Origin: Desulfuromonadales bacterium
GTDB taxonomy: Bacteria > Desulfobacterota > Desulfuromonadia > Desulfuromonadales > BM103
Assembly (NCBI GenBank): GCA_027065695.1
Contig: JAMONP010000085.1
Location: 1 to 64,000 of the forward strand
DNA length: 64,000 nt
Direction of reading: 5' to 3'
Shown here piece after piece: positions 13,347-49,795 of the stretch (within the stretch, counting starts at the first letter, position 1; every line of letters begins with the position of its first letter). Both the position numbers and the translations under genes were made by a program. The notes beneath the pieces were generated by a model, which was given only the letters and a program-made list of their open reading frames with translations, was not told the origin of the DNA and ran no database searches.

Positions 13347-14310
13347 AACCAAACCTCTCCCGCAACACATCATCCTCCTCAAAAAGATGCTGCCCGCGTT
13401 GTGCCGCCCGACTCACCGCAGAACGGGTAATCCCTAAACGTTTGGCAACTGAAGTTCCTGTTAAACGATAACGGCGGGTTGCCAGATAGCAGATCACTGC
13501 TTTAGCCTTGGCAATGGTTCTTGCTTTGTTAGGAAAGAACAGTTCATCCGTATCGACATTGTAATGTTTGGCAACCGTCGCAGTGATGTCACCAAGAGTT
13601 TTAGTGCGTTCTGTCAATTGCATCTGCTCCAGGATGCGTTCTACAAAGTGTCCCCCACCGAGAATGCGGTCATCATAAAGATCCTGATCAGTTAAGCTAT
13701 CGTCAAACGTTTGGCTTGCTTTGCGTCCGCCTCTGGTGAGTTTGTCGCTCTTTTGCTGAAGACCATCGTTTAAAAACTGCAAATAGGCTTTTCTTGCCGT
13801 ATTTTTGTGACGAGCAAACAGGGCGAAAATATCGTCTTCAGTGATGAGTTGATCTTTCCCCCGACCCATCATTTGCCGGTGGCCGCACCAGCGATAGTCA
13901 GTCAGGTCTCGTATGTCTGGAACCAACCTGGCGCGTACCGGATTGAGATGGACATAGCGAACCAGTTCCATCAGGTAGGCGTCACCGTCGCAGACGATTG
14001 ATTTGTAGCGGTTTTGAAAAAGGTGGCCGGACCGTTTGTGACGATGGTTGAAAGAGACGGCATAGCCGGTCAGCAGTTTACGCATAAAGCGAGAAAGTGG
14101 CTGTAACGTTGGCATCAATAAGAGGTGGACATGATTATCGAGCATCGCCCAGGCGTAACAGATCGTTTGGGTTGCTTCCAAAACATGAGTCAGACGGTCA
14201 ATGAAATCTTGGCGATCTTCGTCATCGAGAAAGATCTTGCGACGTTCAATGCCTCTGACGATGACGTGCTGTAGGAGGCCGGGGATGTCTATACGGGCTT
14301 GGCGTGGCAT
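13345..14310 (-). CDS. REP-associated tyrosine (Y1) transposase with DnaA-like C-terminal domain
   Basis: 321 residues. The N-terminal 160 residues are a Y1/IS200-type fold: HVIVRGIERRKIF, the metal-binding DNHVHLLL (HUH), and the helix LVRYVHLNPVRA. The nucleophilic tyrosine is probably in AYLMELVRYVHLNP. The C-terminal part (ITATVAKHYNVDTDELFF ... GITRSAVSRAAQRG) resembles a DnaA domain IV or helix-turn-helix DNA-binding module, which some RAYT subgroups carry. It nicks single-stranded DNA at REP-like hairpins. It is bracketed by imperfect inverted repeats and there is no second transposon gene. The reading frame is intact, so it may be active. Confidence 0.85.
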   Translation of the reverse strand: MPRQARIDIPGLLQHVIVRGIERRKIFLDDEDRQDFIDRLTHVLEATQTICYAWAMLDNHVHLLLMPTLQPLSRFMRKLLTGYAVSFNHRHKRSGHLFQNRYKSIVCDGDAYLMELVRYVHLNPVRARLVPDIRDLTDYRWCGHRQMMGRGKDQLITEDDIFALFARHKNTARKAYLQFLNDGLQQKSDKLTRGGRKASQTFDDSLTDQDLYDDRILGGGHFVERILEQMQLTERTKTLGDITATVAKHYNVDTDELFFPNKARTIAKAKAVICYLATRRYRLTGTSVAKRLGITRSAVSRAAQRGQHLFEEDDVLRERFG

Positions 14311-27004: not shown

Positions 27005-28414
27005 ATGAATCAAATATATGATCTGATCGTTATTGGTGGTGGCCCAGGCGGCTATGTCGCCGCAATTCGTGCAGCCCAACTCGGCTCCACCGTTGCCGTC
27101 ATCGAAAAACGTAAAGCCCTAGGCGGCACCTGCCTCAACGAAGGCTGCATTCCAAGTAAGGCCCTGCTCGATTCAAGCGAACTTTTTGCTCAGGCTCGCG
27201 ATAAGTTCGCCGGTCACGGCATCCTGGTGGATCCTCCCACGCTTGACCTCGGCAAGATGATGAAGCGTAAACAGGACATCATCACGCGCTTGACTCGTGG
27301 CATTGCCAGCCTCTTCAAAAAGAACCAGATTACCCTGGTGACCGGCACTGGTCGGATCGGTTCTGCCATGGAGAATGGACCGCTGCAGGTGATTGCAACA
27401 ACCGATGATGGCGAACAGACGATCCAGGGAAAACGCATTCTTCTGGCAACCGGCAGTGTTGCGATCGATATCCCCGGTCTGCCACAAGATGGTAAACAGG
27501 TCGGACAGGCCCGCGATGCTCTGGAGTACGATGCTGTCCCCGAACATCTGGTCGTCATTGGTGGCGGTTACATCGGCCTGGAGCTTGGCTCTGTATGGCT
27601 GCGGCTCGGTTCCAAAGTGACTGTTGTCGAAATGCTCGAAGAGATGCTGCCAAGCACTGACAAAGAAGTGACCGCAACTTTATTGAAAAACCTGAAAAAG
27701 CAAGGTATGACCATTCATGCCGGAACCAAAGTCGCTGGTATGGAACAAACCGAACAGGGCGTCACCCTCAAACTTGAAGGCAAAATTGAGGAGTCATTGA
27801 ACTGTGACAAGGTTCTGGTAGCTGTCGGACGCAAACCATGTATTGACGGGCTTGGGCTTGATGACGCAGGGGTCAAACTGGACGACATGAAACGTATCGC
27901 CGTCGATGACAACTATCAGACCAGCGTGCCGAACATCTTCGCCATCGGTGACCTGATCCACGGCCCGATGTTGGCTCACAAGGCCATGGATGAAGGCGTT
28001 GTCTTCGCTGAACAAATGGCCGGCGAGAACCCTGTCGTCGATTACAACCTGATTCCGGGAGTTGTCTACACCCACCCGGAAGCGGCATCGATCGGTGCCA
28101 CGGAAGAGCAGCTTAAAGAACATGGGACAGTCTATAAAACTGGTCGTTTTCCCTTCATGGCCAGTGGCCGCGCCCGTGCTATGGATAATGTCGACGGCTT
28201 CGTCAAGGTTCTGGCCAACCCGAAAAGTGGCCGTATTCTCGGTGTACACATCATTGGCCCTTACGCCTCGGAACTGATCAGTGAAGCAGTCACCATCATG
28301 GCTTTTGATGGCAGTGTCGAAGATGTCGCCCTGACCATGCATGCCCACCCGACGCTGAGCGAGGCCTTCAAGGAAGCAGCGCTTGGGGCTTTTGGCAAGA
28401 CTGTACACGGTTGA
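27005..28414 (+). CDS. lpd: Dihydrolipoyl dehydrogenase (E3)
   Basis: 469 residues. Redox disulfide GGTCLNEGCIPSKALL, FAD motif VIGGGPGGYVAAIRAAQLG, NAD motif VIGGGYIGLELGSVWLRLG and the C-terminal active-site HAHPTLSEA (His-Glu) are all present. AGGAG precedes ATG 27005. It reoxidises dihydrolipoamide on SucB, giving NADH, and completes a contiguous E1-E2-E3 set. Confidence 0.97.
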   Translation: MNQIYDLIVIGGGPGGYVAAIRAAQLGSTVAVIEKRKALGGTCLNEGCIPSKALLDSSELFAQARDKFAGHGILVDPPTLDLGKMMKRKQDIITRLTRGIASLFKKNQITLVTGTGRIGSAMENGPLQVIATTDDGEQTIQGKRILLATGSVAIDIPGLPQDGKQVGQARDALEYDAVPEHLVVIGGGYIGLELGSVWLRLGSKVTVVEMLEEMLPSTDKEVTATLLKNLKKQGMTIHAGTKVAGMEQTEQGVTLKLEGKIEESLNCDKVLVAVGRKPCIDGLGLDDAGVKLDDMKRIAVDDNYQTSVPNIFAIGDLIHGPMLAHKAMDEGVVFAEQMAGENPVVDYNLIPGVVYTHPEAASIGATEEQLKEHGTVYKTGRFPFMASGRARAMDNVDGFVKVLANPKSGRILGVHIIGPYASELISEAVTIMAFDGSVEDVALTMHAHPTLSEAFKEAALGAFGKTVHG

Positions 28415-28502
28415 CCAGGATTACATGGAACATCGATAACCAATCGCTCTCTTTACTTCCAGACACTTCTGGTTAGAGACAAACATTTAAGAAACATGAC
28501 TG

Positions 28503-29120
28503 ATGAATAAATTTTTATGGTTATTATGCGCTGCTACTCTGATGCTTGTCGCATGCGCCAAAAACGACACGGAAGTTGTGAGTGTCTGGAAAGATCAGAC
28601 TAAAACTGGAAAGATAAACAAGGTTTTTGTTCTTGCCGTCGTCCAGGAACCATCCTATCGCCGTTTGGTTGAGTATGGCATTGCCGACAGCCTTAATGCG
28701 ACCCATCTTCGGGCCATACCGACCCTCGATACATTTCCAAACATCGACGATATTGACAAAACCGTTGCTGCCAAGATGATTAAAGAGTTTGGCATCGACA
28801 GCATTCTTCTGATCCGTCTTGTCGATCGGAAAGTCGAAACGACCTACGTCAGTGGAACATCTTACTACGATGGTTTATATGGGAACCGGTATGCTGGAGG
28901 GTGGTATAACTATTACGGGGGCGGTTATAATCGTTTTATGACTCCCGGATATACCATAGAAAATTATATTTCCACGGTAGAGACAGCAATATTTGATATT
29001 GCCACCGATAAAGTCCTCTGGACGACACTCACCACAACCAAGGGAAATGTCGTCCCCGAGGCCATAAAAGATTACCTTCTGACGATCAACAAATCTTTGG
29101 CTGAGAGTGGGCTCTTCTGA
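28503..29120 (+). CDS. Outer-membrane or periplasmic lipoprotein, DUF4136-like
   Basis: 205 residues with a lipoprotein signal peptide (FLWLLCAATLMLVACAK; lipobox LVAC, lipidated Cys 18). The mature part has an alpha/beta pattern (KVFVLAVVQEPSYRRLVEYGIADSL, MIKEFGIDSILLIRLVD) and a Tyr/Gly-rich loop (YYDGLYGNRYAGGWYNYYGG) before the C-terminal strands. This resembles small DUF4136-type lipoproteins, but I am not certain. Function unknown. It is about 90 bp after lpd and probably separately transcribed. Confidence 0.75.
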   Translation: MNKFLWLLCAATLMLVACAKNDTEVVSVWKDQTKTGKINKVFVLAVVQEPSYRRLVEYGIADSLNATHLRAIPTLDTFPNIDDIDKTVAAKMIKEFGIDSILLIRLVDRKVETTYVSGTSYYDGLYGNRYAGGWYNYYGGGYNRFMTPGYTIENYISTVETAIFDIATDKVLWTTLTTTKGNVVPEAIKDYLLTINKSLAESGLF

Positions 29121-29145
29121 TACGGGGGGTGTCAGCTAACCTCGT

Positions 29146-29183
29146 AAACCGGGCAAAGCAGATGAACCTTGCTTTGCCCCTAC
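29146..29183 (+). repeat. REP hairpin, copy 1
   Basis: GGGCAAAGCA-GATGAACCT-TGCTTTGCCC followed by CTAC. It is a 10-bp perfect stem and differs from copy 2 (29480-29517) by a paired A-T to G-C change within the stem. It lies just after the 3' end of the RAYT pseudogene. Confidence 0.85.
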
Positions 29184-29193
29184 AGGCTTTGCT

Positions 29194-29790
29194 CTACATA
29201 TTGTTGGGGTTGTTCTTGTCCATGTTCCATTTCATTGGGTTGTCCACAATATATTGCCGATATGTGGCCAATTCATTTGCGTTGCGGATCACCCGTTCAT
29301 AATAATTGCGCTGCCAAACCGGACAACCTGGACTACTCCTGATTTTGTTGATTTTTCACGTTGCAACCGACTTGAAATTTTGAATGACCGCACAAAGCGA
29401 CTCTGATGCCGTCCCCTGCATACCATGGACTTTGCCCTTCTTCGCTACTTTGCCCGTGTCATCACCACGATTACCACAAAAACCGGGCGAAGCAGATGAA
29501 CCTTGCTTCGCCCCTACGGATTTGGTGATATGCATTATTCCGTGAATGTGGTTCGGCATAATGGCATGTGTATCCAGGTTGATATTGGTAAAATGTTCCG
29601 GCAACCGACACCATAAGGATTCAGCGGTTATGCCCATTTCATTCAACCGCATTTCCTCATCTTCAATTGCTCCAAACAGACATTCTCTCTGCCAGGTGCA
29701 AATAGTCACAAAATATGCTCCTTCACAAGAATAATCATATCCTTTTAGACGTAATGATTGACGGTGATGAATGTCGGGGTTAAAGGCCAT
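29194..29790 (-). pseudogene. REP-associated tyrosine transposase (RAYT) with in-frame stop
   Basis: A frame of 198 codons from ATG 29790 to TAG 29194-29196, interrupted by TGA at 29356-29358 where family logic expects CGA (Arg). The N-terminal part has GAYFVTICTWQRECLFG and the HUH motif MPNHIHGIMHI. After the stop the same frame continues CPVWQRNYYERVIRNANELA and YRQYIVDNPMKW, which is the helix carrying the catalytic tyrosine. A product ending at 29359 would lack that tyrosine. A REP element lies inside the frame (29480-29517, read as VGAKQGSSASP). An IS element sits 10 bp upstream of the start. Certainly RAYT-derived; almost certainly inactive. Confidence 0.88.
29480..29517 (+). repeat. 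REP hairpin, copy 2, inside the RAYT pseudogene
   Basis: GGGCGAAGCA-GATGAACCT-TGCTTCGCCC followed by CTAC. It is a perfect 10-bp stem. Same orientation as copy 1 and identical except for the compensating pair. Confidence 0.88.
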
Positions 29791-29792
29791 AC

Positions 29793-29800
29793 TATCTATC
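29793..29800. repeat. 8-bp target-site duplication, left
   Basis: TATCTATC directly abuts the left inverted repeat of the IS element and is repeated exactly at 31237-31244. Confidence 0.88.
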
Positions 29801-31236
29801 CTGAAGTTTAGAGTTTCGTGATCTTAGAAAATTTGCCGAAGCAAAAATAGTGCTTGACAGCATGGCCGTTCTGCGCGGCCGCTATGGACGACAAGGGATA
29901 CCGCCATATCCCCAATGCCCTGTTTGACGCTATCACATTTCTGGCTCAAGCGCTGCCAAAACGTTCGGTTCCAACATGGCTGGAACTCCTTTTCGGTGCC
30001 ATGCTGACGCAAGCTGGTTTTGTCACTGAAGCCTATCTTGCGATCAACCCCAGGCGACACTGGACCAGTTACTACAAGTGGCTCCAGCAAGGTCGCTGGT
30101 CATGGGTAGCCCTAGGGCTGCAGACAGGCCAACTTGCTCTACGTCACGTCCAGAGCAAGCGTTGCTTTCTGGTAATCGATGACACGGTGGTTTTTCGTTA
30201 TTCGAAAAAAGCACCCGAATCACGCATTCATCACCAACACGGGCAAAAGACCAATCGTCCAACTTACGTCCGTGGACAAAACTGGGTCAGCTTGGCGCTG
30301 ACGGTTTCGCAAGGCTGGCGTTCACTGGCAATAGTGGCAAACTGGTTGCGGCTAAAACCCTGCTCAGGGTTGTTCAACCGTTGTTTCAGGACCACATTGC
30401 TACACTGCTTGTGGATTGCTGGTACATGCGCAAGACCTTACTCTTGCCAGCCCAACAGATGGGGTATCAGGTCATCGGTCAGGTACGTAAAGACACTGCG
30501 TTGTATTTACCACCACCGCCACACAACGGTAAACGGGGCAGACCCAGAAAGTATGGTGACAAGCTGACATCAGAGAAAGTAGCAGGCCTTCCCACGGTGA
30601 GTCAGAAACTCTTTCTTTATGGTCGTTGGCAAACACTCCATTATCGTAGTACCGAAGCCCTTGCTTACTTCCTCGGTGGACAACTCATACGGGTTGTCTG
30701 GGCACAAATGGAGCAATCTGACGGCAGCTTGTGTCAACCACGGCTATTTCTATGCACCGACTTGAGCCTTTCAGCAACCAGGATATTACTGGCTTATGGT
30801 CGCCGGTGGTCAATTGAAGATCTGTTCAACCAGCTCAAAAACCGCTGGGGATGGAAAGAGTCATGGCAGCAGACCCGACAGGTTCTGCACCGCTGGACAC
30901 AAATTCTCTCCACCAGTTATGCGCTGCCACAGTTACTAGCCATGCAAGGAGGTCGTCAAGTACAGGAACTGGCAGACTTATCTCCCTGGCGTGCCAAGCA
31001 ACCGATCACAGCCAGTCGGGTACGACAAGGCTTGGCAAGGATTTTTCGGTATGTCGACATTCGCAGCCACTGGAACCCAAAGTCGGGAAAATTCGAGCCA
31101 CAAAGAAGCCCAAAAAGGGCTGATCGACCTCTAGGTCAAGGCAAAGCCGCTTAGCTTCGGTAGTTTTCAACAATCAAAGATCGCTCTCCATGCCTGAATA
31201 GTCAGGTTAGGGGAGAGGTGTAACTCTAAACTTCAG
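29801..31236 (+). mobile_element. Insertion sequence, 1436 bp, DDE transposase type
   Basis: The ends are perfect 15-bp inverted repeats, CTGAAGTTTAGAGTT at 29801-29815 and its complement at 31222-31236, flanked by the 8-bp direct repeat TATCTATC on both sides. This proves a transposition event with borders exact to the base. It carries one broken transposase gene. Family is IS4/IS701-like by protein features; the 8-bp duplication would fit an IS4-related group better than IS701. It landed 10 bp upstream of the RAYT start codon. Confidence 0.92.
29854..31154 (+). pseudogene. Frameshifted DDE transposase of the insertion sequence
   Basis: Two overlapping frames encode one protein. The first (from 29854) gives the N-terminal region and first catalytic Asp (CFLVIDDTVVFRYSKKAPES) to about 30320. 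The second picks up near 30320 (GNSGKLVAAKTLLRVVQPLF) with the second Asp (LLVDCWYMRK) and the Glu-containing helix (RRWSIEDLFNQLKNRWGW), ending at 31154. At the switch around 30315-30325 the family-like sequence jumps, so a small deletion is more likely than programmed frameshifting; no good slippery heptamer is seen in register. Inactive as it stands. Confidence 0.85.
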
Positions 31237-31244
31237 TATCTATC
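31237..31244. repeat. 8-bp target-site duplication, right
   Basis: TATCTATC, an exact copy of 29793-29800, immediately after the right inverted repeat. Confidence 0.88.
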
Positions 31245-31315
31245 GTTACTCCGGTTGATCGATTCAAGGTTGTATAAAGCGACCTTTCTCGTTTATCCAG
31301 CTCCAGCGCATCCAT

Positions 31316-31450
31316 CTACTCCTGCTTCAGTGCCTCGCGTGTCTCAGCAACGCTGGTCAGGAGTGTTTTGTGCTCGACCAGCAATTCCTCTGGATCGCTA
31401 AGTTCATCAGCACCAGAAACTCCTGAACAGGCCATCAGCCAGAAGGGCAT
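31316..31450 (-). CDS. Possible 44-aa peptide or gene remnant
   Basis: Starts MPFWLMACSGVSGADELSD and continues as a charged helix (EELLVEHKTLLTSVAETREALKQE), which looks like natural protein rather than random sequence. TTGACA lies just upstream of the start, but no clear ribosome site. The Cys near position 8 after hydrophobic residues hints at a truncated lipoprotein. No family recognised; it could be the tail of a lost gene. Confidence 0.25.
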   Translation of the reverse strand: MPFWLMACSGVSGADELSDPEELLVEHKTLLTSVAETREALKQE

Positions 31451-31508
31451 TCAATTCTTGTCAACTATTTTGTTATTTCCCTCTTGCTATTTTTTGCTCC
31501 GCGTGGAT

Positions 31509-49704: not shown

Positions 49705-49795
49705 GTAGGGGCTAAGCAAACGTCACACCTGCTTAGCCCTTGTCGGAACGAAAACCAAAGGCGGGCGAAGCAGATGAAGCTTGCTTAGCCCCTAC
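49705..49795. repeat. Inverted REP pair (BIME) between hisF and hisA
   Basis: GTAGGGGCTAAGCA...TGCTTAGCCC (49705-49740) and, in the opposite orientation, GGGCGAAGCA...TGCTTAGCCCCTAC (49763-49795). Each arm can fold on its own, and the two can pair with each other. They belong to the same family as the REPs at 29146 and 29480. Confidence 0.85.

Follow-up and report, generated by a model that had tools for sequence, protein, structure and literature searches.

RAYT genes of the kind analysed here carry a REP hairpin within their own reading frame, and a few residues of the encoded protein follow the stem sequence of that hairpin from genome to genome. Sequence comparison establishes the in-frame position of the internal REP, its match to the REPs around the gene, and the residue-REP covariation together with its held-out prediction. 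Judged by this covariation and prediction, the kind as a whole probably has a recognition code linking a helix of the protein to the REP stem. The window, a 64,000-nt stretch of DNA from a Desulfuromonadales bacterium, likely contains a decayed REPtron: a RAYT of the subclass 2.4 type with a cognate GTAG REP inside it and another just after it, accompanied by dispersed REP dimers.

A broken RAYT gene with a REP inside it

The RAYT reading frame runs on the minus strand from position 29790 to a TAG stop at 29194-29196. The features of the locus, in the order in which the gene is read, and those of a distant REP dimer are as follows.

29194..29790, minus strand: RAYT (TnpA_REP) pseudogene with one in-frame TGA
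29539..29556, minus strand: codons of the HUH motif PNHIHG, from the translation; P79, N80, H81 and H83 are invariant in the alignment of relatives
29485..29517, minus strand: in-frame REP within the linker, GTAG foot at 29514-29517, read as VGAKQGSSASP
29365..29391, minus strand: post-linker helix-face codons A, Q, N, S, V (alignment positions 93, 96, 97, 100, 101), from the translation
29356..29358, minus strand: premature in-frame TGA, read ahead of the WQ motif and of the putative catalytic tyrosine
29284..29316, minus strand: WQRNYYERVIR, which corresponds to WQPRFWEHAIR, the GTAG-contact region of the E. coli protein (role as described for subclass 2.4 in PMC6006769)
29251..29253, minus strand: putative catalytic tyrosine of the Y---NP motif, from the translation (motif as described in PMC6006769)
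29151..29183, minus strand: REP 3' of the RAYT, beginning 11 nt past its stop codon
49705..49739, plus strand: left REP (35-nt type) of an inverted dimer (REPIN)
49763..49795, minus strand: right REP (33-nt type) of the 49705-49795 dimer

Full-length relatives are 39-63% identical to the window gene, and most of them have no stops. The foot-contact residues W94, Q95 and R104 are kept in the window RAYT (WQRNYYERVIR against WQPRFWEHAIR in E. coli), as is the class 2 Y---NP motif, present as QYIVDNP beyond the premature stop. The internal copy at 29485-29517 lies in frame between the HUH and Y motifs, a feature of subclass 2.4, and the neighbouring copy at 29151-29183 has the GT[AG]G foot and a GGG:CCC stem base. 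By its internal REP, rather than by tree placement, the window RAYT is assigned to the TnpAREP subclass 2.4 type. Read through its stop, it scores 53.5 bits against NCBIfam NF047646, under the curated cut-off of 80 (the intact relative L047 scores 62.6 bits), and it is not assigned as an equivalog of that family. The window RAYT was absent from the results of a PF01797 search of the genome (E <= 0.001); Pfam Y1_Tnp matches 8 of 12 RAYT relatives at E <= 0.001. Pfam gave no family for the neighbouring ORF at 28503-29120. A DDE transposase in two overlapping ORFs (29854-31154; Pfam PF13546, PF01609) lies 63 nt from the RAYT start, and the window holds another Y1_Tnp domain protein at 13948-14271 (334-aa open frame), unmatched by the window-RAYT search.

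The preliminary description of this DNA had recognised a RAYT and REP hairpins, and both identifications are correct. It had set the copies at 29146-29183 and 29480-29517 side by side: they differ only at two positions, which lie opposite one another in the stem and form A-T in one copy and G-C in the other, and the second copy is indeed read in the RAYT frame, the first lying just past the stop. The related pair at 49705-49795, also pointed out there, proved to be an inverted REP dimer. The REP family, which had not been recognised, belongs to the known GTAG superfamily.

Genome-wide REP census

Further copies, which the preliminary description had expected, abound. The draft genome (3.39 Mb, 108 contigs) contains 32 strict copies of GGGCNAAGC..GCTTNGCCC versus none of the reversed control pattern, and a covariance model built on 28 copies finds at least 42 distinct REPs (55 rows at E <= 0.1, less 13 that echo a copy on the opposite strand), a lower bound since 150 of 2979 first-look candidates were scored. 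Seventeen inverted dimers with GTAG feet outward, the REPIN arrangement, take up 34 of the 42 copies. A second RAYT on another contig (C50:3653-4291) has one TGA, an internal in-frame REP dimer and REPs on both sides. By a mechanical test 14 of the 42 copies fall in an open frame of at least 90 aa; only the copies within the two RAYTs count as convincingly coding.

Nine of the ten stem pairs are invariant among 26 distinct copies, and the tenth pairs in 11 of them but not in the other 15. Across all 42 copies this variable pair is paired in 22 (A-T 11, G-C 10, T-A 1) and unpaired in 20, of which 14 read T..C. Stem compensation, as the preliminary description proposed it, thus holds for the 22 and not for the 20, and copies that vary without pairing, which it had named beforehand as evidence against itself, are common. 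Its view that selection on the fold explains the paired change best is partly borne out: paired cells make up 94.2% versus 92.4% after shuffling, and none of 500 shuffles reaches either this share or the covariation score, but 476, 69 and 436 of 500 shuffles reach the tallies of changes on both sides of the stem and of pair types. Across the genome, fold selection is not upheld as the only cause of the paired change. Among the dimers, 5 of 17 join a G-C REP to an A-T REP across spacers of 34-46 nt, 3 of 17 (four counting C87) join two T..C REPs, and the remaining dimers are mixed. A long hairpin between the two REPs of a dimer suits the T..C + T..C dimers, not the G-C + A-T ones; neither the single-REP structure nor the dimer hairpin accounts for all copies.

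Relatives in Desulfuromonadales

A RAYT match was found in 12 of 40 Desulfuromonadales genomes, the window genome counted. REPs of the window type (model R1, E<1e-9) occur in five of the 40, namely four with a VGAKQ-linker RAYT and G010, that is, in 4/4 genomes with such a RAYT versus 1/36 others (Fisher 5e-5). G010, a genus relative that is 82% complete and gave no RAYT match, has one strong window-type REP locus (C131:5413-5449). Three genus RAYTs of the window subfamily, namely the window gene, the second gene of the same genome (C50:3653-4291) and one in G009, each contain one in-frame stop (TGA, TGA and TAA, respectively); relatives in other genera are mostly open. Recoding of TGA was rejected because the three stops sit at three different alignment positions, and these genus RAYTs represent parallel decay that leaves REPs behind. 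Both RAYTs of the window subfamily in this genome are prematurely stopped, and the REP population is therefore probably stranded and no longer moving. Elsewhere in the sample, two nearby RAYT genes of one genome (G034:C1:3604138-3606232) have several in-frame REP units in their linkers, where REPs seem to multiply inside RAYT genes.

REPs inside RAYT genes across phyla

In-frame REPs between the HUH and Y motifs of RAYT genes are already known for TnpAREP subclass 2.4 (Quentin 2018, PMC6006769); added here are counts and a cognate test. In a first set, drawn from named genomes, 80 RAYT loci were retained of at least 578 confirmed stretches and 77 were parsed. Of these 77 RAYTs, 65 carry a GT[AG]G hairpin in the linker, which separates the HUH motif from WQ, 3 carry one in the N-terminal part and 0 in the C-terminal part, and synonymous recoding of the linkers (60 recodings each) gives an expectation of 4.65 linker hairpins versus the 65 observed. 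The 65 hosts span 17 named phyla plus 5 unassigned hosts, and the linker REPs take the form of one double-foot palindrome (35), one inverted dimer (13) or other arrangements (17). A second set was taken from 395 genomes of the host phylum, 94 of them with a match, and comprised full-length-looking genes, with partial rows and the rows of G000 and G034 left out; of 100 genes, 85 were parsed and 78 were non-redundant (7 redundant). Here the linker hairpin occurs in 72 of 78, with 4 in the N-terminal part and 1 in the C-terminal part, figures to be read as a fresh draw rather than as independent evolution, as the same REP types recur across both sets. Genes of the Desulfuromonadales relatives stand outside the counts of 77 and 78 unless the same gene recurred in either draw.

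The sense foot occupies codon phases 0, 1 and 2 in 38, 19 and 0 cases in the first set and in 49, 23 and 0 in the second; it is never found in phase 2, the only phase that puts TAG in frame. The end of the antisense foot CTAC falls in codon phase 0 in a single linker out of 65, though no phase of it gives a stop, a bias that is partly a consequence of fixed double-foot lengths.

The internal REP also matches its surroundings. Within 6 kb, flanking hairpins match the arm of their own linker 99 times versus 7.4 times with swapped linkers (0 of 1000 permutations reach this). Such matches occur in 36 of 65 loci, the other 29 having no matching flanking hairpin, and of the 265 flanking hairpins 166 belong to other types (double-foot copies counted on both strands).

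Residues that track the REP stem

Congruence of RAYT and REP trees is known at the tree level (PMC2817692). In our protein tree, built with the greater part of the linker removed, RAYTs from different phyla tend to fall together when their REP type is the same, with 8 of 74 inner branches starred; one starred group with GGTTCGCGAA comprises gammaproteobacterial, cyanobacterial, Nitrospirae and deltaproteobacterial genes. We then scored alignment columns by how far they track REP-arm distance beyond overall protein distance, numbering them by one family member (L133) minus most of its linker. RAYTs with no linker hairpin (12/77 and 6/78) and, among the remaining 72 of the second set, 3 with no GT[AG]GGG foot were excluded.

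Among the 65 RAYTs of the first set the highest values fall on S97 (0.38), A93 (0.33), H89 (0.28), G96 (0.25), F67 (0.21), A101 (0.19) and I94 (0.15), against a 95% line of the permuted maximum of 0.135; columns 97, 93, 89, 96, 67 and 101 rank 1-6 of 130. Among 69 further RAYTs, columns 93, 96 and 97 rank 1, 2 and 4 of 123, with 67 and 101 at ranks 8 and 10, and only 93 (0.300) and 96 (0.247) exceed the max-permutation line of 0.233, 97 standing at 0.219. Two columns outside the helix face, 111 (0.221) and 110 (0.17), come third and seventh in this set; column 89, third in the first set, was not covered by the second-set columns. With all 134 RAYTs pooled (line 0.114), columns 93, 97, 96, 67, 100, 101, 102 and 63 pass, and 111 and 110 fall below the line (0.05, 0.04). 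Columns 82 and 84-87, which precede the linker, give no signal in either set (-0.11 to 0.01), and columns 95, 98 and 103-105, in or just past the helix, give little (-0.04 to 0.07). The window codons at 29365..29391 are the counterparts of these helix-face positions, which in relatives covary with REP stem type.

Five predictor columns (67, 93, 96, 97, 101) were fixed on the first set, and each RAYT of the second set was given the REP arm of the first-set RAYT agreeing best at these columns. With donors more than 40% different, the held-out arm identity is 0.757 versus 0.591 by 89 other variable columns (69 queries), and 300 random choices of five columns reach at most 0.650. The gain declines with donor distance (0.652 vs 0.572 at >45%, 0.591 vs 0.571 at >50%, 0.561 vs 0.544 at >55%), with no gain at >60% (11 queries). 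Adding position 100, a choice made after the second set was seen, gives 0.782 at >40%. Disjoint nearest pairs of the second set were compared at equal protein distance (0.36 in both groups): of the five columns, 1.3 differ in the 17 same-REP pairs and 3.5 in the 17 different-REP pairs (p 6e-5); distance-limited disjoint pairs (9 and 13) give p 0.002. In pooled distance-matched pairs column 93 alone passes Bonferroni.

Particular residues at 93, 96 and 97 go with particular stems: RGA with GGTTCG, TRS with ACGGC, AGS with GACGCA, AAG with GACCGG and KGR or KGY with AATTCA; the triplet ERA accompanies two REP types. Residues 93, 96 and 97 probably decide which hairpin a RAYT reads, as their covariation suggests, more weakly in the second set. 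In the AlphaFold model of L120, positions 93-101 form the first part of a helix (residues 145-164), and the linker is predicted to be disordered (mean pLDDT 41-57 in 10-residue blocks 91-140).

The Q96 N97 type in other genomes

The window RAYT reads A, Q and N at 93, 96 and 97. Q96 N97 occurs in 7 of 155 RAYTs, with hosts in Cyanobacteria, Chloroflexota and Geobacteraceae, and only L120 of the seven belonged to the derivation set. GTAGGGGCNAAGC repeats are present in 5 of the 7 Q96 N97 loci (4 of 6 without L120), including loci in other phyla, versus 0 of 70 other loci, and GTAGGGGCNAAGC stands in the linker in 4 of 7 versus 0 of 148 others, in a comparison that was not blind, the linker peptides of those genes having been seen beforehand. 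The seven QN genomes hold 2-17 GTAGGGGCNAAGC matches each (reversed control 0-1), with 1, 6, 7, 15, 5, 2 and 3 of them outside the RAYT locus; 17 non-QN genomes hold 0-6, no more than their control (0-5). Outside the locus the median is 5 in the seven QN genomes versus 1 in the 17 others (p 0.0015).

A search for extra RAYTs covered 10 of these 24 genomes (nine non-QN genomes with a GAAGC match plus G447), with 20 of 23 rows read and 19 parsed. In G445 (5 matches) it found a second RAYT, of type AQN and with a REP dimer in its linker, and the matches lie in or beside that gene, an observation made post hoc; among the RAYTs found in G438, which has 6 GAAGC matches, none was of the QN type. For the RGA type, GTAGGGGCGGTTCG strand matches in the four genomes with an RGA RAYT number 4, 2, 2 and 13 (control at most 1). 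In G448 and G449 they are a single palindrome in the RAYT gene itself, and dispersed copies occur only in G438 and G450. An RGA RAYT was found in G453 (7 GTAGGGGCGGTTCG matches), a post hoc regrouping, and none was found in G447, which has 2 GGTTCG matches. Two Pseudanabaena QN RAYTs (L148, L173) have short linkers and no REP in gene or locus, and their genomes hold 5 and 2 GTAGGGGCNAAGC matches.

Alternative explanations

The embedding itself might have no role. The internal REP could be a neutral passenger of a RAYT whose REP specificity is real, seen in the linker because only in-frame insertions there survive, a reading already proposed in PMC6006769 to which we give slightly less than an even chance. 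It fits the predicted disorder of the linker and the absence from both sets of the phase that would put TAG in frame. That the REP sits at one place in 137 of 155 RAYTs speaks against it weakly, as the rest of the gene may not tolerate insertions; synonymous sites that keep the palindrome do so too, but recent insertion explains these equally well. Much further down the scale, we consider it improbable that the hairpins are ordinary RNA elements, such as 3' stabilisers or terminators, under selection on folded mRNA. One copy does lie directly after a stop codon, and the share of paired cells beats every shuffle; yet the variable pair does not form in 20 of 42 copies, GTAG feet and dimers with their feet outward recur, the presence of REPs follows the RAYT, and Rfam matched no family in 28000-31500.

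The covariation, in turn, could be a by-product of shared ancestry, or of the exchange of a DNA block spanning linker and helix, rather than a trace of protein-DNA contact. This we regard as unlikely, although several observations lean its way: most tracking columns follow the linker closely on its 3' side, the RAYT tree and the REP tree agree in any case (PMC2817692), the tree on which RAYTs sort by REP type has few well supported branches, and columns 109-111 and 115 also show some signal in the second set. Against it stand the silent columns 82 and 84-87 on the 5' side, and the faint ones at 95, 98 and 103-105, from which the covariation signal has helix spacing; moreover, the pooled set brings in columns 63 and 67, located before the HUH motif, and both the distance-equal pairs and the recurrence of QN RAYTs in distant host groups support contact. 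We favour, as the probable reading, a recognition code in which residues 93, 96, 97 and 100/101 on one helix face, with residue 67, would set the upper-stem sequence of the REP.

Proposed mechanism and significance

Under the recognition code, the HUH nuclease of an intact relative would bind the REP as a single-stranded hairpin, with the conserved WQ..R region recognising the GTAG foot. Residues 93, 96, 97 and 100/101 of the helix that directly follows the linker would read the upper stem, residue 67 probably assisting. REPs, single or as dimers, would next be cut and moved by the protein. Held in frame in a disordered linker, the internal REP would travel with the gene, so that gene and REP could cross phyla as a unit; in this genome, with both RAYTs of the window subfamily stopped early, REPs have probably ceased to move. 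Contact, cleavage, mobilisation and loss of activity are what we infer from the sequence results.

On how a RAYT chooses its REP among many palindromes, Corneloup 2021 (PMC8266576) gives an account of group 3 contacts that is speculative. Each gene carries its REP, and protein-REP pairs are therefore readable from single genes; REP choice becomes computable, with concrete residues and swaps. If the code is true, the embedded REP would be a natural specificity label, genomes would yield many enzyme-substrate pairs, and it could become possible to predict the REP preference of a RAYT or to switch it. With its REP held in the gene, an enzyme could also take a REP family along from one phylum to another.

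Comparison with known systems

In the literature covered we found no description of the window REP family, and in the open-access literature searched we found no paper tying single RAYT residues of subclass 2.4 to REP stem sequence. At the fold level, VIA-align of the model places E. coli TnpAREP with its REP (4er8) first, with Z 13.2 over 129 residues, the longest alignment among the top rows, IS608 transposases being tied with it in Z (13.0 and below); Foldseek places ISDra2 first and 4er8 second. A residue-level mapping to E. coli alpha3 was rejected, as the placement of the linker gap by MAFFT and hhalign leaves the helices not convincingly aligned; K82 of alpha3 has no single counterpart position, and the fold-level match alone stands.

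The closest known system is subclass 2.4 (Quentin et al. 2018, PMC6006769), with the same GT[AG]G REP, flanking and in frame inside the gene in the interval from HUH to Y. The present system differs from it in its GGGCNAAGCA stem, its host and the breakage of both RAYTs of this subfamily in the genome, and in the account of subclass 2.4 in that paper we found nothing at the level of residues that ties the protein to its internal REP. The GTAG superfamily and its REPtrons (Di Nocera et al. 2013, PMC3733652) share the GTAG foot, inverted dimers and in-frame intragenic REPs; unlike the window RAYT, the intragenic REPs stressed in the summary of that paper lie in replication and repair genes. The E. 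coli TnpAREP-REP complex (4er8; Corneloup et al. 2021, PMC8266576) has the same fold and the same WQ....E...R foot-contact region, whereas its REP has a bulged stem, and REPs inside the gene are there called unique to subclass 2.4. In that complex K82 of the DNA-binding helix alpha3 contacts a bulge base, and alpha3 as stem reader in group 3 enzymes is offered in the same paper as a suggestion, called speculation by its authors.
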